From the NCBI RefSeq assembly GCF_000023885.1, contig NC_013165.1:2046001-2110000 (forward strand): DNA of 64,000 bases, in the 5' to 3' direction. How positions within the stretch are numbered: position 1 is the stretch's first letter; the number at the start of each line of letters is the position of its first letter. This document shows positions 6,947 through 63,552 of the stretch, one piece after another. Position numbers and translations under genes: made by a program. The notes below the pieces were generated by a model. The model worked only from the letters and a program-made list of their open reading frames with translations. It did no database searches and was not told the DNA's origin. The DNA comes from Slackia heliotrinireducens DSM 20476. GTDB lineage: Bacteria > Actinomycetota > Coriobacteriia > Coriobacteriales > Eggerthellaceae.

Positions 6947-7092
6947 AGCACGTAGCGCAATGCCGAGCCGACACCCCCTTTGCGCCTGCTCCGCTGAACG
7001 CACCGGCAGGCCGGTATGGCATAATGGGCTTGCCGCCGGTTGCAGCGCCCCAGCTTCATCCGGCATGTTCCTCATGCGTCGAAAGGACCGCC

Positions 7093-7890: not shown

Positions 7891-7943
7891 TTCGGCGTAT
7901 TTTGCGGCGGCTTCTCTATATATAGAAAGGACACGGGCGGTTT

Positions 7944-8885: not shown

Positions 8886-8927
8886 AGGAACACGACGCTT
8901 ACCGTTCGGCACGAGGGGAGCCGCATC

Positions 8928-41706: not shown

Positions 41707-44700
41707 CTAGGAGATGAGCCTTCCGCTGCTGGCGAACGTGTACCATTTGCCGTTGATCTGGTAATCGCCGGTTACCATGCGCCCGGAGCCGTCCTTGAGG
41801 TAGTACCAAAAGCCGTCTACCTTCTGCCAGCCGGTCAGCATCTTGCCGGTTGTCGGATTCAGGTAGTACCAGTAGCCGTCTACCTTCTGCCAGCCGGTCG
41901 TCATCTGGCCGGTTCCAGGCTTGAGGTAGTACCAATATCCGTTGACCTTCAGCCAGCCCGTAATCATGCAGCCGGTGTTGCTGTCTCCGGGGGTGCCCAG
42001 GTAGAACCATTTGCCCGCGTACTTCCCGTTCGTCTCCTTGAACCAGCCGTGGTCCATGACGTTGTTGGTGAAGTGGTACCACTTGCCGTTGGGGAGCTTC
42101 TGCCACCCGTTGACGGCGTTGCCGGCGGAGTAGTACTTCCAGCTGCCATTCTCTTTGACCCAGCCGTTCTTGGTGGGTGCGAGCTTGTCGATGGGCTCGG
42201 TCTTGGTCTCGCCGCACCTCTTGCAGGTGTAGGTCATCTCGCCTTCGGAGGTTGCCGTGGGCTCCACGGTAACCTTGCCCTCGTCCCAGTCGTGGCCGAG
42301 GGCCGGGACGGGCTCCTGGGCCACGAGGACCTCGCCGCAGACGGAGCAGTGGCTGCCCTCGGTCAGCCCGTCCTCGGTGCAGGTGGCAGGGACGGCCTCG
42401 TCGGTGACGGGCGTGTGGCCCGTGGCCGGGATAACGACCTCCTGGGTCTGCTCCTCGAAGGCGGTGTTGGAGAACGTGGCCGTGTACGTGCCGGTCCCCG
42501 CGGCCACGCAGGTTGCGGGCTCGGTCACGGCGTAGGTCGCGTCGACGGTCTCGGCGATGTTCTTGTCGGGATCCTCGTTGCATTCCATGAGGGCGGAGCA
42601 GGAGAGGCCGTCCTCGGTCTCGGCCCATTCGTATACGGGGGCCTTCCACGTGTACCCCGTTGCGGGGATGGTGACCACCTTGGTGCCCTCGTAGGTCTCG
42701 TCGTCCGGGCCGGTGACGGATGCGGTGAAGGTCTTGCTGCCGTTGGTTTCCGGGGTGGCGTCAACGACGACGACGTCGATCTCGGAATCGGTTGCCGTGA
42801 TCGTGTGGGTCGGGTCGTTGGCGCAGGTGAACGTGGCGGTCGCTTCGGTGTAGCCCGCCTCGTCGCTGCCGGTCCACTCCCACGTGGGCTCGCCCCAGTC
42901 GTGGCCCGTGGCCGGGACGGGCTCCTGGGCCACGAGGACCTCGCCGCAGACGGAGCAGTGGCTGCCCTCGGTCAGCCCGTCCTCGGTGCAGGTGGCAGGG
43001 ACGGCCTCGTCGGTGACGGGCGTGTGGCCGGTGGCCGGGATCTCGGTGTAGGTCGTGTAGTCGCAGCGGCTGCACTCGTCGTAGGCCTCCCAGCCGGGCT
43101 CGGTGCACGTCGCGGCCTTCGCGTCGTGGTGGACCAGGTCGTGGCCGAGGGCCTCGGTCTCGGAATCGGTGTAGCTGTCGCCGCAGCGGCTGCAGGTGTG
43201 GGTCGTGTACCCGCCCTCGGTGCAGGTGGGCTCGGTCACGGTGGCCTGGTAGTCGTGGCCCGTGGCCGGGACGGGCTCCTGGGCCACGAGGACCTCGCCG
43301 CAGACGGAGCAGTGGCTGCCCTCGGTCAGCCCGTCCTCGGTGCAGGTGGCCGGGACGGCCTCGTCGGTGACGGGGGTGTGGCCGGTGGCCGGGATAACGA
43401 CCTCCTGGGTGGCGGTGTACGACTGGTCGCCGAACTCTACGGTGGCGGTATAGACCGTCGACCCATCATCGGTGCAAGTTGCCGAGGTGGTTGTCGTTTC
43501 GAGCTCGCTGTCGGTGACGTCCTTGGTGAACTCGGCCTCGCCGTCTTTGGTGGCGAAAGTGGCGGTGGCGGCGGTGTAGCCGTTCTCGTCATCGCTGGCC
43601 CACGTCCATGTGGGCTCGCCGTAGGTGCGCGGGGTCTGGTCGTAGGTAGCCGTGTAGGTTGCTTCGCCGATTACCTCTGCGGGGGCGGGGGTCCACCCAG
43701 AGAACGTGTAGATGTAGTCTGCGTCAGCTGCCCTGGTCGGCGTAGTGCCGGCGTACTCGGGCATCTCGCCGCGGGGGAACTCGGAGCTCTGCAGCTCGGC
43801 GCCATCGTAGTCCACGAAGGTGATGAGGAAGTTGTTCTGAAGCGGCACGGCCTCGAACTGCGCAACGTACGTCACGGGGCCGGTGACTGCAGGAAGGGCG
43901 TCGTTCGGGCCATAGACGATCTGGCCGCCGTCGGAGGACCATCCGATGAACGTGTAGGAATACTGCTCGGAATCGGCTCTCGTCGGGGTGGCGCCGCTGT
44001 AGACGGGAATCTCGCCTGCCGCATACTTGCCCGACTGGTAGTTCACGCCGGCGGTGGTGAACTGCACGATGTACTTGAAGTTGAAGACGGTCGACCTTTC
44101 GAAGATGCGGACTTGGGCGGCGCTGGAGCCCGACGTGTTGAGGCCGAAGGTGCCGTTGCTGTTGGTCAGGTAGTAGGTACTGTTGCTATAAGACATGGAG
44201 AGGCGCTGATTGGAATTGTCGTAGGTGACGGCGCTACCCCTGCTGCTGGAGCGGGGCACGTAGGGGCTACTGCTGCTCCTGGACAGGTACCTGCTGTTGT
44301 TGGTCAGGTACCTGCTGGAGTTGTAGTTCCAGACGGCGCTGGTGTTGTTGGTGACGATGTAAGCGGGCTCGTCGCCGCTCGCGGCGACGTATTCGCCCTC
44401 GCCAAATGTGACGGTGCCGGTGTCTGCGGAGGAGGAGCCGCCGACGTTTTCAATGGCGTAAACGCTGGCGCCATCCTTGGTCACACCGACGATGTAGTCC
44501 TTGCCGGTGGAGAGGGCGTCGGTCTCGATGTAGCGAACCTCAGCCTGGTTGCCGGGGTCGATCATCGTGCTGGACTCGCCGGTGGACCTGACGGTGAACA
44601 GGTTCAGCGAGGCGGAGGCGGACCCTTCCTCGTGGGTTATGTACTTGTCGGCGTTGGCGCTGTGCAGCGTGCTGCCGGAGACGGCGTTCAGGTACTGGCC

Positions 44701-46938
44701 GTCCTGGCTTTTGATGTAGTAGCCGCCTTCGGTGGGCTCGATGAGCCAGAGGATTTCGCTGGTGGGCTCGGTGTTGCCGTCATACAGGACGCCGGTCAGG
44801 CCCTCGTAGCGGTAGTTCGTGCTGTTGACGAGAACGTCGGAAGACGGCTCGGCCGACAGCGCATAGTCGCCGATGGTGATGATGTAGCCGATTCCGGGCG
44901 CGGAGCTCGGGGTGACCGTCACCTCGCAGGTGCCGGTGTATCCGCCGTCGTTGGTGGTGGCGGTGATGGTGGCGGGGCCGACGGAGACGCCCTTGACGCG
45001 GCCGGAGTTGCTTACCGTCGCGACGGATTCGTCGCTGCTCGTCCAGGTGACGGTCTTGTCGTCCGCCTCAGCGGGCAGCACGTTGGCGGTCAGGGCGATG
45101 GACTTGCCTGCCTCGATTTCGAGGGTGGCGGGCTCCACTTCGACGCCCGTGACAGCCACGGGTTCAACGGTGGCATCGGGCTCGACCAGCTTGCTGGTCT
45201 TGTAGTTGCTGGAGGAGCCGACCGTGAAGAAGTCGACGCTGTTGTTGGACGCCCTGGTGGTTAGGTAGATGTCGGCGGGTCTGGGGTTGTCGCTGGCGTT
45301 GGTGCTCTTCAGGTAGCTTCCGTTGCCCTGCCAGGCCTCCAGGCCGCCATCGACGACCCAGACATCCTGGGTGTCGCCGACGGTGAGCGTGCCGGTGTAG
45401 CCGCTTCCGCTGCCCCTCACGTAGGTCGCGCTCAGGTAGTCGCCGTTATAGCTCTTAATGTAGTACCCGTTCTCGACGCCGTCCACTTCCTCAAGAGTCC
45501 AGAGAGTCGACCAGGGAGCGGCATCGTTCGCATTGTACGTGATTGCCTCAAGGCCGTGGTACTCGTAGCCGGAGCTGTTGGACGTCATCTCAGACGACGG
45601 GTTGGAGGTCAGGGCGTAATTGTCGATCGTGATGACGAAGTACTGCTCCACGGAGCTGCGGGGAGTTACCGTGACTTCGATGCCGTCGGTGAAGATCGCA
45701 CTGGTATCGGTGTCGCCCGCCGTCACGGTGATTGTGGCGGTGCCTTGAGCGACGCCTCTGACCCTGCCGTCGGAGCTGACCGTCGCGATGGAGGTGTCGC
45801 TGCTTGCCCAGGATACGGCCTTATTGGTGGCGTCCGCCGGCTCGACCGTGGCGGTGAGCTTGGTGGTCTTGCCCACCTCAACGCTAGCGGAGGTCTGGTT
45901 GATGGAGACGCCCGTCACGGCTACGGGATCCTGCTCGGTGAATGCGGTTCCCTGTCCGTCGGTGCCGTTCTCCGTTACGTTGTTGGCGAATTCGTCGTAG
46001 TACGCGAACGACAGCTGGTTCTTGTGGTTGATTGTGAGGAGGAGGGCTTTGCCCTTGACGCTTTCGCTACCAGAGCCATATTCCTTGCCGCTCATGCAGC
46101 CAGCGGCGGCGTAGTAGAAGTTGAATTCCTTCGTGTCGCTGCTGGAGCTGCCCCATTGGATTACGGATCCAGGCTCGAAAACCTCGTCGTAGTTGGTGTC
46201 GCTCTGGGAGTGGTTGTGACCCCACAGCAGGACGATCTTCTTTCCGGATGCCGTGGCGGCGTTCAGGACGTCGATGACGCCATCGGCATTGGCCGTCGTG
46301 CGGCCTCCCCAATAGCCGCTGCTTCCCCAATGGTGCAGGGGGAAGTGCGTCAGGATGATGACGACCTTGTCGTTGTCGATGCCTGCCAGGTAGTTCTGGA
46401 GCGCCGATATCTGTGCGGCGGTGTAATTGTCGCTGTTGTTGTTCCAGTTGTCCGTACCCAGGCAGTAGATGCGGTAGTTGCTGCCCACCATCGCCTCGCC
46501 GTCTTTTATGAAGTTGTTCTTGACGGAGTTGGTGGTGGTGTTGTACTTGCCGTTGTAGAATTCGTGGTTGCCGGTGGTGTAGACGCCTGTTATGCCGTTC
46601 TGATCGACCGCGGTCATGACCGATTGCGTGTAGGTCCAGAACTGGCTCTCGTTGGCCGAGGCGCTGCCCATGTCGCCGCAGAAGCCGAAGAGCTCGATGT
46701 CGCTCTTGCTGATGCCCGCCTTATCCCCGACGTTGGTGAGCCAGGTGTTGAGGCGGTTCTTGGCCGTGTCGTCGGATGAGTTGTGGATGTCCGACGTGAA
46801 TGCCAGCACGCTCGTGCCGGATTCGTCTGCGTAAGCCTTGCTCATGGCGTTCGGCACGAGGAGGGAAGCCCCGCCTATCATGAACGCCAAAGCTATGGCG
46901 AACAAAAGGCCCGATACTCGTCTCAGTGATTTGGTCAT
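41707..46938 (-). CDS. Giant secreted metallophosphoesterase with Ig-like domains and cell-wall-type repeats
   Basis: 1743-residue exported protein; start at 46938 after AAGGAGGC, with signal peptide SGLLFAIALAFMIGGASLLV. Residues about 40-310 form a calcineurin-like phosphoesterase with every metal motif: FTSDIHN, GFCGDMG, TTGNHEF, ILTHFPLHH, LLWGHNHSQ. Two BIG2 Ig-like domains follow (VAVTGVSINQTSASVEVGKT and VAVTGVEVEPATLEIEAGKS), then further beta-rich modules, MucBP-like repeats, and three HxxCxxCG-type repeats (TPVTDEAVPATCTEDGLTEG, HCSVCGEVLVAQ). The C-terminal 150 residues are choline/glucan-binding-type repeats (GWQKVDGYWYYLN, GWLKVNGYWYYLK). No LPxTG. Likely non-covalently wall-bound; substrate unknown. 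Confidence 0.92.
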   Translation of the reverse strand: MTKSLRRVSGLLFAIALAFMIGGASLLVPNAMSKAYADESGTSVLAFTSDIHNSSDDTAKNRLNTWLTNVGDKAGISKSDIELFGFCGDMGSASANESQFWTYTQSVMTAVDQNGITGVYTTGNHEFYNGKYNTTTNSVKNNFIKDGEAMVGSNYRIYCLGTDNWNNNSDNYTAAQISALQNYLAGIDNDKVVIILTHFPLHHWGSSGYWGGRTTANADGVIDVLNAATASGKKIVLLWGHNHSQSDTNYDEVFEPGSVIQWGSSSSDTKEFNFYYAAAGCMSGKEYGSGSESVKGKALLLTINHKNQLSFAYYDEFANNVTENGTDGQGTAFTEQDPVAVTGVSINQTSASVEVGKTTKLTATVEPADATNKAVSWASSDTSIATVSSDGRVRGVAQGTATITVTAGDTDTSAIFTDGIEVTVTPRSSVEQYFVITIDNYALTSNPSSEMTSNSSGYEYHGLEAITYNANDAAPWSTLWTLEEVDGVENGYYIKSYNGDYLSATYVRGSGSGYTGTLTVGDTQDVWVVDGGLEAWQGNGSYLKSTNASDNPRPADIYLTTRASNNSVDFFTVGSSSNYKTSKLVEPDATVEPVAVTGVEVEPATLEIEAGKSIALTANVLPAEADDKTVTWTSSDESVATVSNSGRVKGVSVGPATITATTNDGGYTGTCEVTVTPSSAPGIGYIITIGDYALSAEPSSDVLVNSTNYRYEGLTGVLYDGNTEPTSEILWLIEPTEGGYYIKSQDGQYLNAVSGSTLHSANADKYITHEEGSASASLNLFTVRSTGESSTMIDPGNQAEVRYIETDALSTGKDYIVGVTKDGASVYAIENVGGSSSADTGTVTFGEGEYVAASGDEPAYIVTNNTSAVWNYNSSRYLTNNSRYLSRSSSSPYVPRSSSRGSAVTYDNSNQRLSMSYSNSTYYLTNSNGTFGLNTSGSSAAQVRIFERSTVFNFKYIVQFTTAGVNYQSGKYAAGEIPVYSGATPTRADSEQYSYTFIGWSSDGGQIVYGPNDALPAVTGPVTYVAQFEAVPLQNNFLITFVDYDGAELQSSEFPRGEMPEYAGTTPTRAADADYIYTFSGWTPAPAEVIGEATYTATYDQTPRTYGEPTWTWASDDENGYTAATATFATKDGEAEFTKDVTDSELETTTTSATCTDDGSTVYTATVEFGDQSYTATQEVVIPATGHTPVTDEAVPATCTEDGLTEGSHCSVCGEVLVAQEPVPATGHDYQATVTEPTCTEGGYTTHTCSRCGDSYTDSETEALGHDLVHHDAKAATCTEPGWEAYDECSRCDYTTYTEIPATGHTPVTDEAVPATCTEDGLTEGSHCSVCGEVLVAQEPVPATGHDWGEPTWEWTGSDEAGYTEATATFTCANDPTHTITATDSEIDVVVVDATPETNGSKTFTASVTGPDDETYEGTKVVTIPATGYTWKAPVYEWAETEDGLSCSALMECNEDPDKNIAETVDATYAVTEPATCVAAGTGTYTATFSNTAFEEQTQEVVIPATGHTPVTDEAVPATCTEDGLTEGSHCSVCGEVLVAQEPVPALGHDWDEGKVTVEPTATSEGEMTYTCKRCGETKTEPIDKLAPTKNGWVKENGSWKYYSAGNAVNGWQKLPNGKWYHFTNNVMDHGWFKETNGKYAGKWFYLGTPGDSNTGCMITGWLKVNGYWYYLKPGTGQMTTGWQKVDGYWYYLNPTTGKMLTGWQKVDGFWYYLKDGSGRMVTGDYQINGKWYTFASSGRLIS
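42303..42430 (-). repeat. About 128-bp coding direct repeat, copy A
   Basis: Near-identical to copies at 42912-43040 and 43266-43394 inside the secreted protein gene; encodes the ATGHTPVTDEAVPATCTEDG and CSVCGEVLVAQEPVPA module. Confidence 0.85.
42912..43040 (-). repeat. About 128-bp coding direct repeat, copy B
   Basis: Second copy of the cysteine-containing module; 609 bases from copy A. High DNA identity suggests recent duplication or gene conversion. Confidence 0.85.
43266..43394 (-). repeat. About 128-bp coding direct repeat, copy C
   Basis: Third copy, 354 bases from copy B. Unequal crossing-over between copies would change protein length in frame. Confidence 0.85.
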
Positions 46939-47165
46939 GGCGCCTCCTTCGCGTTGCAGTACGTTTCTGGATGGTGCTATGTTGTCCATTATGGGGGCGA
47001 GACGAATCGTTTCTTTCTACAAATGCAATGAATTCGGTGGACGTATTTAAGAATTTGTCTAAACAGTGCGTTCGGAAGACGCTTCTCCTTATAGCAAACG
47101 AGTGTCGTGGACGACGGCATTGTTGTTATGGTTTGCAAACGTTATGTTCGCGTCGTCGATGGTGA

Positions 47166-48602: not shown

Positions 48603-48971
48603 TTAGTAGTAGGCGAGTCCGATGCCGACGTATTCGCAAGTGCCGAAGCCCGTCACACCCGCGCCGTTCTCCGTTTCAACGGTGTTCGAGTCGCTGTCGT
48701 GGCCGCCGCCGATAATGAGGCACCACGACCCGCCGGCCACGGCTTTCAGCTCGTCGTCGTCCAGCTCGCGGGCCTGGGTCGACTCCACGGCCTCCTCGAA
48801 GGTGTAGGGCAGGCCGGCCTCGGCGGCAAGCGGCGCGACGGTTGCGTCGAAGACCGCCTTCTCGTCGCCCTTGTCGCCGTCGAAAGCCTTGAGCGCTTCC
48901 TGCAGCTTTGTCTGCAGCTCCTCGTCGCTGCGAAGCAGCTTCTCGAACTCCTTGACATTCTCCTGTGCCAT
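48603..48971 (-). CDS. Nif11-type RiPP precursor peptide
   Basis: 122-residue precursor. Residues 1-81 are a Nif11-derived leader (ENVKEFEKLLRSDEELQTKL, GLPYTFEEAVESTQARELDD, ELKAVAGG) ending at the double-Gly cleavage site Gly80-Gly81. The predicted core, residues 82-122, begins SWCLIIGGGHDSDSNTVETE and ends GTCEYVGIGLAYY with Cys84 and Cys112, and is rich in Gly, Ser/Thr and acidic residues. GGAGAAA precedes the start. No modifying enzyme or peptidase-transporter is within the window, so the maturation chemistry is unknown; a disulfide or a lanthionine are possible. Confidence 0.85.
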   Translation of the reverse strand: MAQENVKEFEKLLRSDEELQTKLQEALKAFDGDKGDEKAVFDATVAPLAAEAGLPYTFEEAVESTQARELDDDELKAVAGGSWCLIIGGGHDSDSNTVETENGAGVTGFGTCEYVGIGLAYY

Positions 48972-52436: not shown

Positions 52437-53738
52437 CTATCCCCAAAGCTCCCTGCAGGAGATGGCGTACAGGGGCACGTTGCGCATCCAGTCCTGCTCG
52501 CGGTAGCCCGAGAGGCTGAAGCGGACCGCCCGGACCTCGGGATGCGCGTCTTTGAACGCCCTCAGGCTCTTGGCGCGCAGGTTCTCCTCGGCCTTCACCT
52601 CCATGGCGAAAACGCTGCCGCCGTCCTGGACGAGGAAGTCGATCTCGCCGGAGGAGTTCTCCGCCGACCAGTAGTAGGGCGAAAGGCCGCACTCGGATAT
52701 GAGCTGCTGGCAGACGTACTGCTCGGTGAGCGCGCCTTTGAACTCCGTGAAGACCTTGTTGCCGTCGACGACGTCCCGCGGCTCCAGGCCGCTCATGGCG
52801 CCGAGGAGCCCCACGTCCACCATGAAGACCTTGAACGCGCTCATGCTGCAATAGCTCGGCAGCGGCACGTGCGGCTTGCTCACGCGGCGCACCTTGCAAA
52901 TCAGGCCTGCCTGCTGGAGCCACGCGAGGCTCTCCTCGAAGTCGGCCGCGCGGGCGCCCTTGCGCACCTGCCCGAAGATGAACTTCTTGTTCTCCTGCGA
53001 CAGGTGTCCCGGGATCGACTGCCAGGCGAGCATGGTGCGCGCGAGCAGGCGGGGCGGTATGTGCTTCGCGAAATCGCTCACGTATCCGTTCAGGATCTCT
53101 TGTTGGACTGCCCGTGCGGCGCGCACGTCCTGCTCGGCAACATAAGCATTCACCGCCTCGGGCATGCCTCCCACAACGTAGTATTGCTTGAGGAGCTCGG
53201 AGAGCTTGCCCGAGAAGGCGTTCATCATCTCCGCGTCGCCCGATCCTATGAGCTTTCCGAACCTTTCGTTTCCCGTCGCGTCGAGGAACTCGGTGAAGCT
53301 CAGCGGGTAGAGGTCGAGCGTGTTGACCTTGCCGACGGGATAGCCGGTTCCTTCGGTTGCCGATATCCCCAGAAGCGATCCGGCTGCGGCAACGGCGTAC
53401 TCGGGGGCGTTCTCGCAGAAGTACTTGAGGGACGTGATGGCCTTGGGGCAGGCCTGGACCTCGTCGAGGACGATGAGCGTTTCCCCCGGCCGTATCTCCA
53501 TGTCGAGCTCGAGCGCGAGCGAGGCGATGATCCTTGCGATGTCGAAGCCGGACTCGAAGTAGCCGCGCGCGAGCGAATCGTTATCGAGGCTGACGTAGGC
53601 GACGTTTTCGAAGTGGAGTCTCCCGAACTCCTTGAGCAGCCACGTCTTGCCAACCTGCCTGGCGCCGTTGAGAATGAGTGGCTTGCGGCGCGAGCTGTCC
53701 TTCCAGGCGACCAGCTTCTCCATGAGGGCTCTTTCCAT
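52437..53738 (-). CDS. DUF4143-type AAA ATPase
   Basis: 433-residue ATPase; ATG at 53738 with GGGAGGG is preferred to a TTG five codons earlier. Walker A GARQVGKTW (about residues 25-33), Walker B TLIVLDEVQACP, and sensor-like AAAGSLLGI; the C-terminal half is DUF4143 with a PD-(D/E)xK-like ENSSGEIDFLVQD ... VFAMEVKAEE core. These proteins are widespread in gut anaerobes, often as multi-copy families; proposed roles include toxin or defence functions, none proven. A strong inverted repeat overlaps its promoter region. Confidence 0.9.
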   Translation of the reverse strand: MERALMEKLVAWKDSSRRKPLILNGARQVGKTWLLKEFGRLHFENVAYVSLDNDSLARGYFESGFDIARIIASLALELDMEIRPGETLIVLDEVQACPKAITSLKYFCENAPEYAVAAAGSLLGISATEGTGYPVGKVNTLDLYPLSFTEFLDATGNERFGKLIGSGDAEMMNAFSGKLSELLKQYYVVGGMPEAVNAYVAEQDVRAARAVQQEILNGYVSDFAKHIPPRLLARTMLAWQSIPGHLSQENKKFIFGQVRKGARAADFEESLAWLQQAGLICKVRRVSKPHVPLPSYCSMSAFKVFMVDVGLLGAMSGLEPRDVVDGNKVFTEFKGALTEQYVCQQLISECGLSPYYWSAENSSGEIDFLVQDGGSVFAMEVKAEENLRAKSLRAFKDAHPEVRAVRFSLSGYREQDWMRNVPLYAISCRELWG

Positions 53739-53757
53739 ATGACTCCCTCCCAAATAG

Positions 53758-53803: not shown

Positions 53804-53835
53804 AGTGTTTCAGTCTACAATTTTAAGGACGTAAT

Positions 53836-53853
53836 TATTCCCACTCGATGATT
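53836..53853. other. Candidate attachment site core (guaA 3'-end sequence), left
   Basis: On the minus strand this reads ATCGAGTGGGAATAA, encoding Ile-Glu-Trp-Glu-stop, the invariant C-terminus of GMP synthase (guaA), with no guaA gene attached. The 3' end of guaA is a known integration target of tyrosine recombinases. A matching sequence is at 63537-63552. Interpreted as one boundary of a genomic island. Confidence 0.5.
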
Positions 53854-54215: not shown

Positions 54216-54863
54216 CTAATCCGTTTCAATTATTGTCAGGTACTTAGCCGGCACGTGCTTAGTCAACCAGACTCCGTTCTTCGAAAGGAAGAACTCGAAA
54301 CCTTCTTCGTGCATAGCGCACGTATCGACCTTCAGTATTACGGGGCTTCCATGGCGACTCCCAACTTTGATCGCCGTTTCTCCGTCTGAAGAAAGATGGA
54401 CATAAAGACGACCCTTGGGAAGAAGCCCCTGTTTCATTATCGAACCCAGGAACCTCTGCGCCGTACCGTGGTAGAGCGCCTCGGGAGGATCTTTAGGCTC
54501 GAGCTCGACGTCGACATCGACCGAGTGTCCCTGGTTGGCGCGGACGAGAGAATGGTCTTCGTTGAACGAGTACCTGCCCTTAGAGTCTGTGGCGACGATT
54601 TCTTCCAGCATCTCAAGGGTGAAGGGACGCAGGGAAGCGATGCCCTTGACGAGCTCGTCGACGTTTGCCCATCCGTGCTCGTGGGCACGTACCTGCTCGA
54701 CGAGCGCGTCCCAAGCAGGGCCTACCTCCCCTGTCCCGTCGTTTCCGTCGGGACCGACGAAGACGGAAAACTTATGGTCGTCGTCGGTCCCGAATAGGCC
54801 GCAAATGGCAGGGACTGCAAGCGCGGGAGAACGGATCGGCGCGGCAGTAAGGCGCGCCCGCAT
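54216..54863 (-). CDS. KptA/Tpt1-like RNA 2'-phosphotransferase, N-terminal motif missing
   Basis: 215-residue protein. From about residue 64 it matches KptA/Tpt1: HGWANVDELVKGIASLRPFT, LEEIVATDSKGRYSFNED, VRANQGHSVDVDVEL, PEALYHGTAQRFLGSIMKQG, LYVHLSSDGETAIKVGSRHG, NGVWLTKHVPAKYL. The family's N-terminal LRH motif, which supplies the first Arg-His pair of the catalytic tetrad, is absent and replaced by about 60 residues I cannot assign. The 5' end also overlaps an XRE gene remnant on the other strand. It may be inactive, or the true N-terminus has been lost by recombination. Confidence 0.75.
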   Translation of the reverse strand: MRARLTAAPIRSPALAVPAICGLFGTDDDHKFSVFVGPDGNDGTGEVGPAWDALVEQVRAHEHGWANVDELVKGIASLRPFTLEMLEEIVATDSKGRYSFNEDHSLVRANQGHSVDVDVELEPKDPPEALYHGTAQRFLGSIMKQGLLPKGRLYVHLSSDGETAIKVGSRHGSPVILKVDTCAMHEEGFEFFLSKNGVWLTKHVPAKYLTIIETD

Positions 54864-55052: not shown

Positions 55053-57251
55053 CTACTCCGAGCCTCCTGGCGCCTGCATCCACTGCCATTCGCGCAGGTG
55101 CTTGAACGGCAGAGGCAGCACCGTCGCGTCCCTGATGCGCACGACCGGGACGAGCAGGGTGCCCAAGAGGCTCGAAAACGACGGCTCGCCGCCGTCCGCG
55201 GAGCGGACGCGCCTGATGGTCATGCCCCTTTTCCATCCTGCGTTCGGAAGCCCTCCGAACGCACCCACCCAGTAGCAGATCCCGTCCGGCCTGCGGTAGC
55301 ACTGCAGGCCCACAAGCGACTCGAGTTCGCCCGCCCTGTTCTCCTTGCCGCGCGGCACGCTCGTCGAAAGGCGTTTCGCGAACATCTCCTCGAGCTGGTC
55401 CGAGATAGCGTTCTTGACCGTTCTCGCGAGCGTCGTTCCGCCCTGGGACCTGCCGACGTCCTTCACGATCCCGTACAGCTGGGCCGACGTCACGGCCTCG
55501 CCCGGCAGGTCCTCGACCGCCTCGCAGACGGCCGCCCTCGCCCCGTCGACAAGGGGCTCGTCGCTCGCCGTCGAGAGCGCCGCCAGGACGTCGTCCTTTG
55601 GCATGGTCCAGTCGAAGGCGCGAATCTGCTCCTCGACCACCTCGAGATCCGGCACGGGGAAGCCCTCGGTCCTTTCGATGACGTCGACCTCGCCGTTGTC
55701 GCCGATAACGAACCCTTCCACCACCGAGGCGCCGGAAAGCCCGTACTCCGCCGCCAGGTCCCCGGCCAGGACGTCCCATCGGCCGCCGCCCAGCGCATCG
55801 TCCGCGCACCCCGCGTGAAACGACAGCGAGCCTTCGGGCGTGACCTCGGCGAACGAGTAGCGCGTCGGCGGCTCCCCGGGCTTGCGTGACTCCCTCTCGG
55901 CGTCCGTCTCCGGCCCCGGCAGCGCAAACGTCACCGGCCCGGAAAGTCCCAGCGACGTCCAGTCGAATACGCCCATGCGCCCCGCGAGGACGTCGTTCTT
56001 GATCGCGAGCTCCATGAGGCACTTCTCGAGGATCGCCTTGAGCGCCGACGTCTTCTTACCGTCCTTGTCTACCGCCGCCTTCGCCGCCTGCAGCCTCTCG
56101 ATCGTGAGGTGCTGGCACGGGGCCTCGGCGCCTGCGGAGCCGCCGTACGGGTCCGGCGTGCCGGAGTCGCGGTAGAACTCGGGCGCGTGCACCACGACGA
56201 TGTTTCGCGCCCCCTCGCCCGGCTCGCCGGCCACCTCGACGTCCGCATTAGCCCCGAGAAGCCCCAGTCCCTTCAGCTGCTGCGCGACGTAGCGGCAGGC
56301 CGACTCGCCGTCCTCGTCCTTCGCGGCGTTCACGACCCGGTAGCCGTGCCCCGAAAAGCCCGCGCCCGCCCCGGGCTTCGCCAGGCGCCCCTCGAACGCC
56401 ACGCGCCCGGCCCTGTCCTCCTCGGCGAACGCGACGTGTGCAATACCTTCGTACCTCTTGTTGAACGTCGAGACGAACTCCGACATCACCCCGCACTTCG
56501 AGTCCCTGTACGCGTCCCTCGACCTGAACGAAAGGAAGTCGACGGAGTTCTTGCTCCCCTCGTACGTCCTGCGGACGAACACGCTGTCCGCGCCCGGCCT
56601 CTCGCCGGGCATGACGCGCCTCATGGTCGGGCCGCCGAGGTCCACCACGTACCTCGCGTACTGCTCCTTGCGGTACTTGCCGTACTTGACCCCGGGCTCG
56701 TCGGGACGGGTGAAGGTGCACACGTCGGCGCACAGGAGCATCCCCTCCGTCACCCTCAGCTCAAGCGCCCAGACTTGGTAGGGCTTCTTCTCTCCCCTTC
56801 GCTTCCTGCTCCAGGACGGCCTGACGCAGTACAGGTGGCCCGTCACGTTCTGAAGGCCCGTCCCCGCGCCCCCCGCGCCGAGCGCGTTCACCATGAGCTG
56901 CACCAGGACGTGCGCGGGCACTTTGCCGCCTTCGACCCTGCGCGGCAGGAGCATGAGCCCCACGTCGTCGGGGTCCACATCCTCGCCCTCCACCTTGCCG
57001 CAGAGCGCGCTCTCGAAGTGCCCCCTCAGCCCCTTCGCGTCGGTCGCCCCTTTGCCCGTCAGGATGTAGAACGGCTTTCCGCTCCCCTGACCGAGCACCG
57101 CCTCGATGAAGGGCGCGCCGCCCGGCTCGAAGGCGCGCGAGCTCCACGAGAGCCTGCCCTCGCCCTGCTTCTCGACCTCGTACACGTCGAACGCCTCGTC
57201 GAACCCCGCCAGGTCCACCGACGCGTCAAGCCTGTTCGTGAGAACCGTCAT
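55053..57251 (-). CDS. Unrecognised 732-residue partner of the helicase-nuclease
   Basis: Large soluble protein that I cannot place in a family. Features: an N-terminal region with FYILTGKGATDAKGLRGHFE; a basic segment PSWSRKRRGEKKPYQVWALE; then CTFTRPDEPGVKYGKYRKEQ and FVRRTYEGSKNSVDFLSF; a middle IVVVHAPEFYRDSGTPDPYG ... CQHLTIERLQ; and a C-terminal VGLQCYRRPDGICYWVGAFG. The alternation of beta strands and conserved acids in the middle could be an RNase-H/PIWI-like fold, but I do not see a convincing catalytic set. Its ATG lies 6 bases after the helicase stop, so the two are one operon. Confidence 0.75.
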   Translation of the reverse strand: MTVLTNRLDASVDLAGFDEAFDVYEVEKQGEGRLSWSSRAFEPGGAPFIEAVLGQGSGKPFYILTGKGATDAKGLRGHFESALCGKVEGEDVDPDDVGLMLLPRRVEGGKVPAHVLVQLMVNALGAGGAGTGLQNVTGHLYCVRPSWSRKRRGEKKPYQVWALELRVTEGMLLCADVCTFTRPDEPGVKYGKYRKEQYARYVVDLGGPTMRRVMPGERPGADSVFVRRTYEGSKNSVDFLSFRSRDAYRDSKCGVMSEFVSTFNKRYEGIAHVAFAEEDRAGRVAFEGRLAKPGAGAGFSGHGYRVVNAAKDEDGESACRYVAQQLKGLGLLGANADVEVAGEPGEGARNIVVVHAPEFYRDSGTPDPYGGSAGAEAPCQHLTIERLQAAKAAVDKDGKKTSALKAILEKCLMELAIKNDVLAGRMGVFDWTSLGLSGPVTFALPGPETDAERESRKPGEPPTRYSFAEVTPEGSLSFHAGCADDALGGGRWDVLAGDLAAEYGLSGASVVEGFVIGDNGEVDVIERTEGFPVPDLEVVEEQIRAFDWTMPKDDVLAALSTASDEPLVDGARAAVCEAVEDLPGEAVTSAQLYGIVKDVGRSQGGTTLARTVKNAISDQLEEMFAKRLSTSVPRGKENRAGELESLVGLQCYRRPDGICYWVGAFGGLPNAGWKRGMTIRRVRSADGGEPSFSSLLGTLLVPVVRIRDATVLPLPFKHLREWQWMQAPGGSE

Positions 57252-57257
57252 GCCGTC

Positions 57258-60200
57258 CTACCTCTCTTCCTCGATGAAGTCCCTGATCTCGCCTATCGCC
57301 CGCACGTCGTACGAGAGGTCCGGGGCGACCAGGGCGGGGACCACCAGCAGCCCGCGGCCATCCCCGTCCCGGTATCGGCGCGCGACGAGCCTCCTGCCGT
57401 CGGGCGGGAGGACGTTCGCGACGACCGCGCGCTCGGCTCCGACGTCGCGCATCTTCTCGAACGCCCACCTGCGGTATTCCTCGGACTCGGCGCCCAGCTT
57501 GTCCGACGGCGCCTTCCAGTGCTTGAAGTCGACGTAGGCCGCGCGCCCGCCCCCTGCGGCGGAGAAGGTGAAGTCGAACTTCTCGAACTCGAGCGGGTCG
57601 TCGATGCCGGCGACCTCGAACCCGCACGCTTCGAGGATCGTTCGGCCGCAGACCTCGCCCAGGCGCCCCTTGTATATGCTCTGGAACACCACGGGCGTCA
57701 TGAACCACTCCGACGCGCGCCACTCGGTCGCGTACCCGCTCCTTTCGAACTCCTCGCGCACGCCGGGTATGCGGAGAAGCTCTTCGAGGCGGGCGTCCGC
57801 CGAGCTCACCGCGAAGGACGGCCTCCCGCCCGCACCCGGCCCGTCGAGCACCTCCACCTGGGCGAAGTCGCCCTCCGAGCGGTACCGGAGCTCCATCGAC
57901 GGGCGGGGCGCGCGCAGGTAGTAGCTGCGCAGCAAGTGGGCGGGCACGTCGCCGTCGCCTGACGGCTTCGGGTTCTTGAGCACGCACTCGCCGAGGGCGC
58001 GCCAGGCCTCGATCGCGTTCCTTCGCCAGCGCGAGCCCAGCAGCGACCCGATGGCGGTCTTCGAGCGTGCGCAAGCGCGCTGCTGCTCGAGCGCAAGCCT
58101 CTTGGCCTCTTTCCTCGCGGCGCATCCCTCGGCGGGCGCCCGGCGGGCCTCGAAGTGCTCGACGATGGCCTGGAACTCGGGCGTGAACGTGACGCCGCAG
58201 CCTTCCAGCTCCTCGAGGGAGACCCCGTCGAGCAGCCCCGCGTCCACGAAAAGCCGTATGACGGGCATCTTCATGTTCGTGCGGTTCAGGCGGCCGCAGG
58301 CCTGGTACACCTCCTTCGCGGCGTACATCTGCACGCTCTCTAGCCCATCCTTCATGAAGCCGTAGTCCTTCGCGGCGCCCTTGGTCGCCGTCAGCGCGCT
58401 TTCCGCGGAGCTCAGGAGCTTGGCGTAGGAGATTTCGCCGTTCTCGTACAGGTACTCGCACCCCAGGATGTGTTCCATGGCGCGCTCCCGGCCGATGGGG
58501 CACTCGCCGGTGATCGACGGCGACATGTGCGTCGGGCGCTCCAGGTAGCAGCAGTCGATGTCCATCTCGCCCGTGGCTGGGAACCCGTTGATCTTCACGG
58601 GGGAAACGCCCTCGGGCACGGGGTACTGGAGATTCTGGCCGGCGCCCGCCGACGCGTACGTCGTGACAAGGAAAAGCTTCTCCCCCGCCGCGAGTCGCGC
58701 GAGGGCGTCCCGCTTGCGTTCCTCGAAGTCGTCCCCGCCGAGGACCGCGTAGGTCGCGCGCGGCGGGACGCCGGAGCCGAGCTCAGCGAGGATGGCCCCG
58801 AACAGGCCTTCGAGCAGCTCGAGGCCGAAGTCCCCGTCGCCCGGCTTGGGCAGCCTGTTCAGCACGCAGAGCATGGCGCGAGAGTCCTCGTCGGCGAAGA
58901 AGCGCCGGTAGGCGGTGCAGACCTTGAGGATGCGCTGCTGGCGGAACGTGCCCCCGCCCTCCGGCAGCGACATCTCCACCTCGTTGCAGGCGCGCCGTGC
59001 GGCGGACGGGTCCGCGAAAACGGATTCCCATGCCTTTGGGCCGTACTCGCCGTTGTCGTCGACGCCGGAGACGCTTTCGACCTCGATCCTCACGCGGTCG
59101 TAGCCGTCCACGCTCTCGCGGTAGTCGGCCTCGATGAGCGACTTCTGCGCGTCCGTGAACCTGAGCCTTCGGTCGCCGAGCGCGTCGTCGACGTAGCCCA
59201 TGTCGTAGTTGCCGAGCACCGACCGGATGTCGAGCGTGGCCGACACGCCGACCACCAGGTTCCGGCCGCACAGGTCCAGAAGTACCTTTTCCGCGGTGCA
59301 CGGCAACTCGCAGCGCTCCATGCGCACGGTGGTGTCATGGGAGGGCGACCGTTCCAGCGAATGGTAGCGGAATCCCGTGCCGTGGATGCTCAGGTCCTCG
59401 GGGCCAGCGTATTCTCCCGCCGCACCCGCGTGCCAGTGCCCGCGCCTTCCGCGGACCAGGGCGATCAGGCGCTCGCGCGTGGGGTTCGGCGTTCCGTCGA
59501 CCTCGTCGAGCACGTTGAGCTCGGCGAGCACGGTGCCTATCGCCTGCTCGACGCTGATCTCGGGGCGCAGGCCCTTCTCCGCGTCGGCGGCGACGGCCCT
59601 CGCATAGTTCTCCGCGACCTTCCCGATCCAGTCCAGCGACCATCCCAGAACACCCTCGACCCTCTTGAGCGCGAGGTGCAGGGCGTAGGTCTCCCCGACC
59701 GCCGGGAACAGGTTCTTCTGATCGTGGCGGCTGAACGGCTCATGCCCGCGGACGATGTCGACCGTGTTCCGATTCTGCTCGAACCGCAGCGCCGCCCACA
59801 GCTTGCGCGCGCCGCCCTCGGCCCCCTCCCCGCCCGACGTGGGAGCCTCGCGGCAGACGACCGTCGTTCGGAAGTCCTCGAACAGGAACGGGCGGGCGGA
59901 GCGGGCGACGTCGTCCGACAGCCGGAACTGCCTTTCCAGGCGCAGGGCCGCGTACACGTCGTCGCTCGCCTCGACGAGCTTCCCGCGCTCCTGCAGCAGG
60001 GCCTCTCCGCGCTCCTTCGACGAATCGGGGCTTCGGAAGAGGTCCGCCGTGAGCTGCCTGCCCCTGACCTCGGACGCCCTTCGGGCGCGCTCGTCGGCAT
60101 AGGGCCTGACCGAGCGCGGCGAAGCGTCTGTGCCGCTCGGAGCCTCGAAGAGCCTGCGGCCTTCCTGGGACGGGCCGTGCAGCGTGCGGAGCAGGCTCAC

Positions 60201-61157
60201 GGCGTCGGACATCGTGTTCGTCGCCTCCTCTATCAAGGCTCGGTTGATGACGCGCTTGGAGAGCTCGAACTCGTCGATGAAGAGCACCGACCCGCGAAGG
60301 AGGTCGCTCCCCAGAAGGGGCTCAGACGGCTCGACGATCGGCGTCGACGCGGCCAGGAGCTTGCTCACGCTCATGAACACCGCGCGGGCCCGGTACGCGA
60401 ACACGGACGGGTAGAGAACGCCGAGCCACTTCCACGCCGGATCGCCCTCGAGCACCCTTCGCTTCTCCTTCAGCGTCATGAACCTGCAGCGGCCGCCCTT
60501 GTCGACGCCCATCTCGCGGAACACCCCCGAGATGCGCCTGCGGAAGGCGCGCTCCGCCTCTTCGAACCGGCTCTCGGCGGCCTCGATCGCATCCCTGCGG
60601 ACGGCCGGGTCCTTGATGCTGGCGCCCTTCGCGCCCTTGAGGCTCGCCAACGCCCTCGTCGCGCGGTCAAGCTCGGGCAGGGCCCTGACGTCGAGCTCCT
60701 TGCTCTCGCTGGACCACGTGCCCGTGCCGCCGTCGCGCTTGCCGCGCGTGACGTACCGGACGGGCTTTTGGCCCATGAGCGCCGTCGCGGCGTCGATGTT
60801 GCGCTCGAACATGCCCGCATTCGAGTCGTAGAACAGGACGTACTCCGAAAGCTCCGGGCGTCCGCGCTCGGCGAGCATCCCGTTCAGGCGGCCCGCCGGC
60901 AGGTTGCGCTTGACGTCGGTCGCGAACACGAAGCGCCGGCTTTCCCCGCCGTGCTCAACCAGGCTGTCGGCGATGAGCTCGAGCACCGAGTGCGTCTTGC
61001 GCTCGCCCGTCGGCGCCGACACGGTGAGAAGCCCGCACTGGCCCGGGTCCTGCGAGACCGCCTCCCTCAGGGCGAGCAGGATCCCCGGCTCCCTCCCCTC
61101 TTCGCACATGCGCCCCACTGGCCCTTCTCCTTGCGTCCGCTGCACCAGATCCGTCAT
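57258..61157 (-). CDS. Superfamily-2 helicase fused to a PD-(D/E)xK nuclease domain (candidate defence protein)
   Basis: 1299 residues from ATG 61157, chosen for AAGGAGGG ten bases upstream. Motif I is SAPTGERKT (about residues 47-55), where Arg replaces the usual Gly before Lys; motif II SVLFIDEFE (near 290); motif III VGVSATLD (near 640); motif V LVTTYASAGAGQNLQYP (near 830); motif VI YQACGRLNRTNMK (near 956). The long insertion between II and III is unusual. The C-terminus has a nuclease-like core EFEKFDFTFSAAGGGRAAY then VDFKHW (near 1210), as in restriction-type enzymes. With the 732-residue partner it forms a two-gene operon in an apparent genomic island. Antiviral function is inference. 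Confidence 0.82.
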   Translation of the reverse strand: MTDLVQRTQGEGPVGRMCEEGREPGILLALREAVSQDPGQCGLLTVSAPTGERKTHSVLELIADSLVEHGGESRRFVFATDVKRNLPAGRLNGMLAERGRPELSEYVLFYDSNAGMFERNIDAATALMGQKPVRYVTRGKRDGGTGTWSSESKELDVRALPELDRATRALASLKGAKGASIKDPAVRRDAIEAAESRFEEAERAFRRRISGVFREMGVDKGGRCRFMTLKEKRRVLEGDPAWKWLGVLYPSVFAYRARAVFMSVSKLLAASTPIVEPSEPLLGSDLLRGSVLFIDEFELSKRVINRALIEEATNTMSDAVSLLRTLHGPSQEGRRLFEAPSGTDASPRSVRPYADERARRASEVRGRQLTADLFRSPDSSKERGEALLQERGKLVEASDDVYAALRLERQFRLSDDVARSARPFLFEDFRTTVVCREAPTSGGEGAEGGARKLWAALRFEQNRNTVDIVRGHEPFSRHDQKNLFPAVGETYALHLALKRVEGVLGWSLDWIGKVAENYARAVAADAEKGLRPEISVEQAIGTVLAELNVLDEVDGTPNPTRERLIALVRGRRGHWHAGAAGEYAGPEDLSIHGTGFRYHSLERSPSHDTTVRMERCELPCTAEKVLLDLCGRNLVVGVSATLDIRSVLGNYDMGYVDDALGDRRLRFTDAQKSLIEADYRESVDGYDRVRIEVESVSGVDDNGEYGPKAWESVFADPSAARRACNEVEMSLPEGGGTFRQQRILKVCTAYRRFFADEDSRAMLCVLNRLPKPGDGDFGLELLEGLFGAILAELGSGVPPRATYAVLGGDDFEERKRDALARLAAGEKLFLVTTYASAGAGQNLQYPVPEGVSPVKINGFPATGEMDIDCCYLERPTHMSPSITGECPIGRERAMEHILGCEYLYENGEISYAKLLSSAESALTATKGAAKDYGFMKDGLESVQMYAAKEVYQACGRLNRTNMKMPVIRLFVDAGLLDGVSLEELEGCGVTFTPEFQAIVEHFEARRAPAEGCAARKEAKRLALEQQRACARSKTAIGSLLGSRWRRNAIEAWRALGECVLKNPKPSGDGDVPAHLLRSYYLRAPRPSMELRYRSEGDFAQVEVLDGPGAGGRPSFAVSSADARLEELLRIPGVREEFERSGYATEWRASEWFMTPVVFQSIYKGRLGEVCGRTILEACGFEVAGIDDPLEFEKFDFTFSAAGGGRAAYVDFKHWKAPSDKLGAESEEYRRWAFEKMRDVGAERAVVANVLPPDGRRLVARRYRDGDGRGLLVVPALVAPDLSYDVRAIGEIRDFIEEER

Positions 61158-61222: not shown

Positions 61223-61251
61223 ATTGTAGCATCAATTATGCCTTATGTGTA
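61223..61251 (-). promoter_or_regulatory. Weak promoter candidate for the helicase operon
   Basis: On the minus strand TACACA (61246-61251) and TACAAT (61223-61228) are 17 bases apart, about 66 bases upstream of the helicase start. The -35 matches consensus at only four of six bases. An AATTG/CAATT dyad overlaps the -10. Confidence 0.35.
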
Positions 61252-61340: not shown

Positions 61341-61861
61341 TCAGCTGGCGGCGCCCTCGGCCCTGCGCACCGCCACCTTGAGCTCGCGCAGGGCCCACGT
61401 TCGGGTCCCTGCGTCGAGCTCGAAGAACTCCTGGAAGTAGCGCAGGGCCACGTCGTCCTTCGGGTCGAGCCCGCCGAGCGACGCCGGGCGCACGCCGTCC
61501 TTGCGCCGGAACGTGCTTGCCTCCTCGAAGGGAGAGCCGCAGACCCGCGTGATGTGCTTGCCCGTCGCCAGCTCGCCGACCATGAACTCGATGGGGCTGC
61601 CCAACCGGCCATCGACAACCTTGGAGCCCTGGACGCGGGGCCAGGGGCACGCTCCCTCCCCCGGGCTTTCGCCCTCGCCGTCGAACATGACCAGAAGCTC
61701 CAGGATCCCCCCCCCAGAGTCTGGTCCTCCTCGGAAAACCACCCTGCGAGGAAGCACGCCACCGCCAGAGCGAGGCCGAGCACGCCCTCGCGCATCGCCG
61801 CCTCAAGCGCACCCGGGGCGGGGTCTGGGTACAGGGCGCGCGCCAGAAGGCCCTTCGCCAC
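61341..61861 (-). pseudogene. Unrecognised ORF interrupted at a nine-G tract
   Basis: A frame from GTG 61861 (AKGLLARALYPDPAPGALEA, AMREGVLGLALAVACFLAGW, FSEEDQTLGG) breaks in a run of nine G (minus strand; C-run 61707-61715 on plus). In the next frame it continues as ILELLVMFDGEGESPGEGAC, then SPIEFMVGELATGKHITRVC, and ends LKVAVRRAEGAAS at 61341. Joined, it gives about 170 residues with one hydrophobic segment. I do not know the family. A homopolymer this long can slip, so this may be a phase-variable gene, a dead gene or a sequencing error. Confidence 0.55.
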
Positions 61862-62061
61862 CTGCGAGGGGGTCTCGTAGTCGCCGGAGGCCCTGATCGA
61901 CGCGAAACACGCGCAGGGACGCAGGGCCGAACGGCGCGGGGCCCTCCGCCCCTCCGAGGACCGATGCGCTCCTCGGGTCGATCATCCAGCCCACGAACCG
62001 CGTCCCCAACCGCCTCATTCCCTTCTCGAAAGCGATCGGCTGCAAAGACTTCGACCAGTGG

Positions 62062-62547
62062 GTGCACTTCTACGAATTCGACTACCTCTTCGAGAGGGTC
62101 TGGCGCGACCCGAGGCGTTACCTGCCCATCTTGAGGCGCTTCAACGGCGTCATCCTGCCCGACTTCTCCGTCTACCGCGACATGCCGCTCGTGATGCAGC
62201 TGTGGAATATCTACCGCAGCCGCGCGATCGGCTTCTGGCTGCAGGCCAACGGGGTCGAGGTCATCGTCAACGTGCGCTGGGGCGACCGCCGCACCTACCG
62301 CGTCTGCTGCGACGGGGCACCCAAGGGCGGCGTCATCGCGGTGGGCACGGTAGGCGCAGTCCAGTCCACCGAGGACAGGCTCTTCTTCGCGGAAGGCCTC
62401 GCCGTGGTCGTCAGGCGCCTCGACCCCAAGGCCATCGTCGTCTACGGCAGCGCGCCCGAGGAGATCTTCGGCAGGTACCGCGAGGCGGGCATCGAGATCG
62501 TCCAGTTCGCCAGCGAGACCTCCTGTGCGCACGGGGAGGTGGCGTGA
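62062..62547 (+). CDS. DUF4417-like protein, 5' end uncertain
   Basis: 161 residues from a GTG at 62062 (HFYEFDYLFERVWRDPRRYL, GVILPDFSVYRDMPLVMQLW, NIYRSRAIGFWLQANGVEVI, VRWGDRRTYRVCCDG, VAVGTVGAVQ, VVYGSAPEEIFGRYREAGIE). This is the DUF4417 pattern known from phage and mobile-element proteins. Coding similarity continues upstream without a start (SIIQPTNRVPNRLIPFSKAI) to a stop at 61896, so the true 5' end is missing or frameshifted. Its stop overlaps the next start (TGATG). Function unknown. Confidence 0.72.
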   Translation: MHFYEFDYLFERVWRDPRRYLPILRRFNGVILPDFSVYRDMPLVMQLWNIYRSRAIGFWLQANGVEVIVNVRWGDRRTYRVCCDGAPKGGVIAVGTVGAVQSTEDRLFFAEGLAVVVRRLDPKAIVVYGSAPEEIFGRYREAGIEIVQFASETSCAHGEVA

Positions 62548-62993
62548 TGGGCACCGGCGAGCACGGCGGGTTCGGCTACACCTCTGGGTCGGGCAAGTCG
62601 AAGACCTTCACGCGGGTTTGGTACGAAGGCACCGTAACAGTTGGCGACGAGGTGCGCGACGTGAGCCGCAGGGTCTACCAACGAAATGACATTGATTTCA
62701 ACTACGTCGACCCCGATTCTGGGAAAACGAATCTTCAGCTCATGGAAGGGGGCAATGCTCCAATCGGAAACGATGGCAAGCCCGTCCAGCTGCACCATGT
62801 CTTGCAAAAAGAAAGCGGACCCATGGCTGAGGTCAGGGAAATCACGCACGAGGAGTATCATCGTATTCTGCACGGCTTGGTGAGTGACGGTAACAGTTTC
62901 AGGCACGATGAGGATCTCAAGAAGCAGTACGAAAACTTCAGGCGAAAGTACTGGCGTTGGCGTGCTCGTGAATACAAGAAAGGCGGCAACTAA
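62547..62993 (+). CDS. Orphan LHH-type nuclease toxin (polymorphic-toxin tip)
   Basis: 148-residue protein with GGGGAGGTGG upstream and a one-base overlap with the DUF4417 stop. The core GNAPIGNDGKPVQLHHVLQK, followed by MAEVREITHEEYHRILHGLV, is the LHH motif of HNH/endonuclease-VII-type toxin domains that normally form the C-terminal tip of large polymorphic toxins. Here it is free-standing: only a Gly-rich N-terminus (GTGEHGGFGYTSGSGKSKTF) and no delivery domain. An SMI1/KNR4-type immunity gene follows immediately. Confidence 0.82.
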   Translation: MGTGEHGGFGYTSGSGKSKTFTRVWYEGTVTVGDEVRDVSRRVYQRNDIDFNYVDPDSGKTNLQLMEGGNAPIGNDGKPVQLHHVLQKESGPMAEVREITHEEYHRILHGLVSDGNSFRHDEDLKKQYENFRRKYWRWRAREYKKGGN

Positions 62994-63409
62994 TGAACGA
63001 TAAAATCAAGGAGCTCATCTCAAAGTATGAGGACGAGGGCTTTTTTACGCGGGTGCCTCCTACTCCCGAGATGGTCAAAGAGGCACAGGAGAAGCTCGGT
63101 GTAGAGATCCCCGAGCAGTTCCTGGAATACCTCAACATCTATAGCTATGGAGGAATCAACGGAACCGAGATTTTGGGAATCGGCATGACTGGCAAGATCA
63201 TGTTTCTCGAGGAGACGTTGGAGTATCGTCGCTATGGGCTCCCGAATAATCTCATCGTTGTGGAAAACTGCGACGAATGGGTCTATTGCCTCGATGCGGA
63301 AACTGGAAAGGTGGTCTCTTGGTCGCAGCTGGATGGTCTCAAGGATGAGTATCCGTCATTTGATGACTTCCTACTCGATGAGCTCAACGAAGCTATTGCC
63401 AACTTGTAA
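62993..63409 (+). CDS. SMI1/KNR4-family immunity protein
   Basis: 138-residue SUKH-superfamily protein; the start overlaps the toxin stop (TAATG). KIKELISKYEDEGFFTRVPP, TPEMVKEAQEKLGVEIPEQF, LEYLNIYSYGGINGTEILGI, and WVYCLDAETGKVVSWSQLDG are the expected strands and loops. SUKH proteins neutralise nuclease toxins encoded next to them, which fits the LHH protein upstream. Confidence 0.92.
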   Translation: MNDKIKELISKYEDEGFFTRVPPTPEMVKEAQEKLGVEIPEQFLEYLNIYSYGGINGTEILGIGMTGKIMFLEETLEYRRYGLPNNLIVVENCDEWVYCLDAETGKVVSWSQLDGLKDEYPSFDDFLLDELNEAIANL

Positions 63410-63449
63410 AGCGAGGTTCAACAAGGCCTAGAAAGGCTTACGAGGGTTT

Positions 63450-63497
63450 AATAAGCCCCTCTGCCAAGCGCAGCTCGGCAGAGGGGCTTATTGTGTT
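63450..63497 (+). terminator. Strong terminator of the toxin-immunity unit
   Basis: Perfect 16-base-pair stem (63450-63465 with 63477-63492), 11-base loop, followed by GTGTTT. Lies 40 bases after the immunity gene stop. Confidence 0.8.
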
Positions 63498-63536
63498 TAG
63501 CTGGGGAAATGTGCGCTCCGAGCGGCTTTTCGTCAC

Positions 63537-63552
63537 TCCCACTCTATAGTTC
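63537..63552. other. Candidate attachment site core (guaA 3'-end sequence), right
   Basis: On the minus strand this reads ACTATAGAGTGGGAGTGA, encoding Thr-Ile-Glu-Trp-Glu-stop, matching the C-terminus of GMP synthase without a guaA body. It matches the left candidate site (53836-53853) at 12 of 15 bases, same orientation. Interpreted as a second island boundary. Confidence 0.5.

Follow-up and report, generated by a model that had tools for sequence, protein, structure and literature searches.

The window analysed here, a stretch of 64,000 nucleotides of the genome of Slackia heliotrinireducens DSM 20476 (contig NC_013165.1, positions 2,046,001 to 2,110,000), carries a two-gene operon, ddmDE, that very probably encodes a plasmid-elimination module of a deep and divergent DdmDE lineage and is cargo of a cassette integrated at guaA. 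Both open reading frames (ORFs), that of the helicase-nuclease DdmD and that of its Argonaute-like partner DdmE, are full length and intact, with the coordinates and lengths given in the original prediction. The ddmE gene follows directly after ddmD. The two were thought to overlap, but are in fact separated by a gap of 6 nt between the ddmD stop (57258) and the ddmE start (57251). The G+C content of the operon is about 0.69, versus 0.53-0.65 in the flanking 1-kb steps. The original prediction had considered the pair a nucleic-acid-targeting defence module that matched no system that could be named. The former idea holds, and the module is DdmDE; the latter was overturned by sequence, fold and operon architecture. 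A confident assignment to a described system had been named beforehand as the result that would speak against the prediction, and the assignment to DdmDE is such a result.

The ddmD product lacks a match in Pfam and NCBIfam. It was recognized by the PADLOC DdmD model (1.6e-31) and, as a single sequence, by the DdmD chains in the PDB (3.1e-36 for the best to 1.7e-33). A DdmD family profile made from 35 homologues matched DdmD of Lactobacillus casei at 1.4e-164 and that of Vibrio cholerae at about 2e-140, in both cases over nearly the whole chain. A scan with the DdmD profile yielded at least 55 confirmed loci in named bacterial and archaeal genomes, to which four from plasmid records were added. 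These 59 related loci form a biased sample, the 55 having been confirmed among the 594 stretches listed. Shortened, split or unmatched proteins and a few near-duplicates were omitted from the alignments, and the DdmD alignment consequently holds 34 full-length proteins from the 59 loci together with the protein of the window (35 rows). The predicted architecture of a 1299-residue SF2 helicase with a C-terminal PD-(D/E)xK-like domain was confirmed: motifs II (DEFE), III (SAT), V (GAGQN) and VI (QACGRLNRT) are intact, and the residues of the putative nuclease site (E1168, E1192/D1195 and D1210-F-K1212) all occupy invariant columns. The very long insertion between motifs II and III is real as well, as the gap measures 344 residues. 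It is not peculiar to this protein, however, since the gap is long in all 34 aligned relatives (266-289 residues); by sequence the insertion is a family trait, with some 60 extra residues in the Slackia protein.

The 732-residue partner had been described as a protein of no recognized family. Indeed, it has no Pfam match at E<=1 and none in NCBIfam. Nor does any of the 38 DdmE homologues match a Pfam model at 0.01; the hit to a PIWI-type Pfam model by which the pPIWI-RE family would be recognized is absent. As a single sequence, the protein matches L. casei DdmE in the PDB at 3.6e-6, and a DdmE family profile (37 DdmE proteins and the window protein) covers positions 2-674 of the 680 in the same chain, at 1.3e-67. 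Structure prediction had been proposed as a check. The AlphaFold2 model, based on an alignment of 37 rows (36 homologues and the window protein), reached a pLDDT of 81.5 and a pTM of 0.84, and its best PDB match is L. casei DdmE. The first six Foldseek ranks are all DdmE chains (3.1e-32 to 2.1e-21). Superposed by VIA-align, L. casei DdmE scored a Z of 24.1 (rmsd 5.0 over 646 residues); the Z of other Argonautes and of PIWI proteins was 12-13. On profile and model evidence the protein is thus DdmE, with an Argonaute-like fold, and the tentative suggestion of a PIWI/RNase-H-like fold was borne out. The family membership, the operon, the motifs (intact except for one P-loop glycine), the Argonaute fold and the boundaries of the cassette were all established in this analysis.

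These results bear on two other readings of the pair. The neighbouring genes, which include restriction and candidate antiphage genes, would suit an undescribed antiphage system with a mechanism of its own. Every domain and partner assignment nevertheless leads to DdmDE, which makes such a system very unlikely; the idea of an undescribed system as such was discarded on the PADLOC and PDB sequence and profile matches and the DdmE fold. Alternatively, the pair could belong to the ApsAB branch. ApsAB of Escherichia coli likewise combines an SF2 helicase with PD-(D/E)xK domain and an Argonaute-like partner in antiplasmid defence, and the passages of the ApsAB paper cited here (PMC11096173) group ApsA with DdmD in a single broad family. 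The same paper reports ApsB as lacking similarity to DdmE, however, whereas both profile and fold match the Slackia partner to a solved DdmE along the full length; we therefore regard membership of the ApsAB branch as extremely unlikely. A search by eye for the ApsB MID motif Y[X]3K[X]nQG[X]nK in the DdmE rows, made without the ApsB sequence, showed conserved columns at Q380 (36 of 37 rows) and K418 (all 37) and no conserved Y-xxx-K pair ahead of them. Judged from their conservation, Q380 and K418 could belong to the predicted guide-end pocket. Residues 431-732, where the PIWI region is expected, contain a single column that is acidic in at least 90% of the 37 rows: E721, which belongs to the motif PFPFKYLREY at the C terminus. 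This pattern, taken from a column scan rather than a residue-by-residue comparison with an active Argonaute, is consistent with an inactive Argonaute.

A search for the pair in other genomes had also been proposed, and it revealed the same two-gene order. The start of a DdmE homologue lies no more than 400 nt from the end of DdmD in 50 of the 59 loci, and the two mostly overlap slightly. Five of the nine unpaired loci reach the end of a contig, and in the other four (L003, L005, L036 and L060) the ORF downstream gave no match to the DdmE profile. In L036 (DdmD at 6080-9484) the next ORF matches HsdM. In Nostoc, Persicobacter and Cetobacterium (L002, L003 and L005), DdmD is itself plasmid-borne and has an ORF of partner size behind it; of these three ORFs, the DdmE profile recognizes that of Nostoc alone. 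The loci come from Bacillota, Cyanobacteriota, methanogenic archaea, Bacteroidota, Fibrobacterota, Spirochaetota and others. A phylum-wide profile search yielded four of 396 genomes, one being that of the window and the other three weak and partial matches (49-98 positions, E above 1e-4). Among viral contigs, none of 294 stretches with the pattern was confirmed as a DdmD relative, and these searches found none in phage records. The DdmE homologues include a short class of 577-619 residues (L007-L011, L023, L027, L032, L033, L042, L048 and L049); these 12 of the 37 rows miss the helical stretch at residues 548-625 of the Slackia protein.

The closest characterized system is that of L. casei (PDB 9ix4, 9iw3 and 9ixm), which consists of the same two proteins and is the best PDB match for both Slackia genes, with about 20% identity between the DdmE proteins in the structural alignment. 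The system of V. cholerae shares the architecture (DdmD match 1.6e-33, DdmE fold Z 23.5); its sequence is deeply divergent and it resides in the island VPI-2, whereas the Slackia operon resides in a guaA cassette. DdmDE is characterized by DNA-guided plasmid elimination and by an autoinhibited DdmD dimer. According to the passages of PMC12409362 cited here, published DdmDE acts on plasmids, and DdmE, which resembles a long prokaryotic Argonaute and is catalytically inactive, uses DNA guides, binds plasmids and recruits DdmD, which in turn loads on the non-target strand, translocates in the 5'-to-3' direction and cuts in a nuclease-dependent manner. By homology this is the most likely mechanism of the Slackia module as well; its guides and targets, the recruitment and cutting steps and an activity to the present day are all predicted from that homology. 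DdmE loaded with a guide DNA would base-pair with plasmid DNA and then recruit DdmD, DdmD would load on the displaced strand and translocate with ATP, and its PD-(D/E)xK domain would cut, so that the plasmid would be removed.

Several observations weigh against an active DdmDE module of this lineage. Within the host class, DdmD was found in one of 296 sampled genomes, namely that of S. heliotrinireducens itself. The PADLOC DdmE model matched the ddmE product at 0.0033 only, over 24 residues. The Slackia DdmD is at most 33% identical to any DdmD in the tree and sits on a long, deep branch, the position of which is unstable between models. In a quick tree it fell within the clade of L. casei DdmD (SH-aLRT 98 for 32 rows); in a mixture-model tree that leaves out three long rows (L003, L005 and L054) it was basal, beside a very long outgroup, and the branch separating it had a support of 89/81. 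Row L059 was too short for either tree. The placement in the L. casei clade was dropped because the mixture-model tree disagrees. Taken together, the sequences place the Slackia pair as a deep, divergent lineage of the known DdmDE system. Among the eight papers listed, of 3,313 matched, a literature search on Actinomycetota, Coriobacteriia or Eggerthella gave none with DdmDE; we do not claim that the lineage is unreported.

The non-canonical Walker A motif of DdmD adds to these points. The GERKT noted in the original prediction is real: the sequence reads APTGERKTH, with a cgc codon for Arg53. This arginine occurs in one of the 35 aligned DdmD proteins, all 34 relatives having GxGK (GTGK in L. 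casei, where Slackia has GERK); the lysine and threonine of the P-loop are kept. Judging from the motif, the Gly-to-Arg change may impair the binding of ATP. It could even have abolished the use of ATP, in which case the pair would be DdmDE by descent and no longer active. GERKT is the main ground for doubting present-day activity, since mutation of the Walker lysine or of DExx abolishes the activity of ApsA (PMC11096173, passages cited). The preserved lysine and threonine, the intactness of all other motifs and the full length of both ORFs nevertheless speak against such a loss of activity, and we consider it unlikely, though with a real chance of being true. A bolder idea is that the variant P-loop alters the use of ATP, that DdmD acts as a guide-recruited nickase more than as a processive helicase, and that the cassette, stacked against a conjugative element, is a weapon between elements, with plasmid and restriction defences that exclude rivals; we give this a small chance. 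In its natural P-loop variant the operon offers a handle on the need of DdmD for ATP-driven translocation. It moreover adds to DdmDE a lineage that is nearly missed by the PADLOC DdmE model. This model detects 17 of the 38 DdmE homologues at E<=0.01, and the system may thus be under-counted.

The genomic context of the operon is summarized in Table 1. Copies of the 3' end of guaA were found in the host genome at 2099835 (window 53835), 2109533 (window 63533) and 2113731, all in the orientation of guaA and encoding Ile-Glu-Trp-Glu-stop. Two copies in the window compare with 0.07 expected; none of 100 shuffles reached two, and 40 simulated sequences contained none. The gene itself (GMP synthase) lies outside the window at 2152206-2153816, with a tyrosine integrase adjoining its 3' end (2149843-2150973). 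A published guaA island repeat shares the core 5'-ACAATNGAGTGGGAATNNTT-3' (PMC7775301, passage cited). In four relatives (G006, G002, G009 and G012) the guaA locus has two to three such copies, including the end of guaA itself, and in a fifth (G007) only the latter. The DNA beside guaA in G002 aligns at 75% with the right end of the cassette (window 62267-63551), and that in G009 at 70% with the gene adjacent to the cassette on the left (window 52437-53738). In view of the copies at both flanks and the aligning guaA-adjacent DNA of the relatives, ddmDE is located in a 9.7-kb guaA-att cassette, which we infer to move, or to have once moved, as a unit. What is new is that ddmDE is carried at an integration hotspot at guaA, in a cassette stacked beside a conjugative element.

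Table 1. Features in and around the ddmDE cassette (window positions)
Feature	Position	Strand	Remarks
AAA_14-DUF4143 gene	52437..53753	-	just outside left guaA repeat; PADLOC candidate defence model PDC-S01, 5.7e-173
Left boundary, copy of guaA 3' end	53835..53849	-	encodes IEWE-stop; 1 mismatch in 15
KptA/Tpt1 RNA 2'-phosphotransferase	54216..54863	-	in cassette; no part of the system
ddmE	55053..57251	-	Argonaute-like partner, 732 aa; PDB sequence/profile matches, AlphaFold2 model
ddmD	57258..61157	-	SF2 helicase with C-terminal PD-(D/E)xK nuclease, 1299 aa; PADLOC, PDB, motifs
Walker A core GERKT	60993..61007	-	residues 51-55; Arg53 (codon cgc) where relatives have Gly
Promoter-like site	61223..61251	-	upstream of ddmD; weak (1 found, 0.7 expected)
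138-aa ORF	61341..61757	-	in cassette; no Pfam match
DUF4417	62062..62547	+	in cassette; Pfam
LHH (HNH/Endo VII) nuclease	62442..62993	+	in cassette
SUKH_5 immunity-type protein	62993..63409	+	in cassette; Pfam
Right boundary, copy of guaA 3' end	63533..63547	-	encodes IEWE-stop; 2 mismatches in 15

In the host genus and family, the tandemly repeated guaA 3' end, seen in loci L079-L082 too, marks a stacked integration hotspot. A direct repeat of at least 17 nt between 2138-2164 kb and 2046-2122 kb was not present, and the shorter, degenerate repeat was found via the guaA terminus. A tRNA was considered as the insertion site, and none was found.

The island with toxin-immunity genes that had been suspected corresponds to the guaA-bounded cassette, in which the LHH nuclease and the SUKH_5 protein adjoin the operon. 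The DUF4417 and LHH ORFs (group at window 62058-63409) overlap in different frames, and for that reason the LHH ORF may be a toxin fragment. The kptA gene shares both strand and cassette with ddmDE, as it would if it were a functional part of a three-gene system. Its homologue was present in none of the 59 related loci (stretches examined), and such a system is barely credible.

Beyond the cassette, a module that reaches guaA encodes a TraG-type coupling protein, a TrbL/VirB6-like protein, a relaxase, an integrase and the type I restriction locus hsdM-hsdS-GmrSD-hsdR. This locus, in which GmrSD is embedded, is located outside the window, at 2137396-2145323 of the host genome and some 30 kb from ddmD. 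VPI-2 likewise carries, besides DdmDE, type I restriction genes with a GmrSD-like pair embedded among them (PMC12409362, passage cited). Homologues of GmrSD, HsdM and HsdR were each found in one of the 59 related loci, and type I restriction with GmrSD beside DdmDE was therefore dropped as a general rule; the VPI-2-like setting may be due to chance, as it is not general among these loci. Among the guaA cargo of the relatives (59 ORFs in five guaA loci, a collection with no control set for which no enrichment is claimed) are genes for restriction enzymes of types I and III, for AbiE and for GmrSD-like proteins. Further away in the window, positions 41707-46989 encode a surface-type protein of 1760 aa, a metallophosphatase with Big_2 and choline-binding repeats, and positions 48603-48971 a protein of 122 aa that has a Nif11 leader-type domain (3e-5) and may be the precursor of a RiPP.

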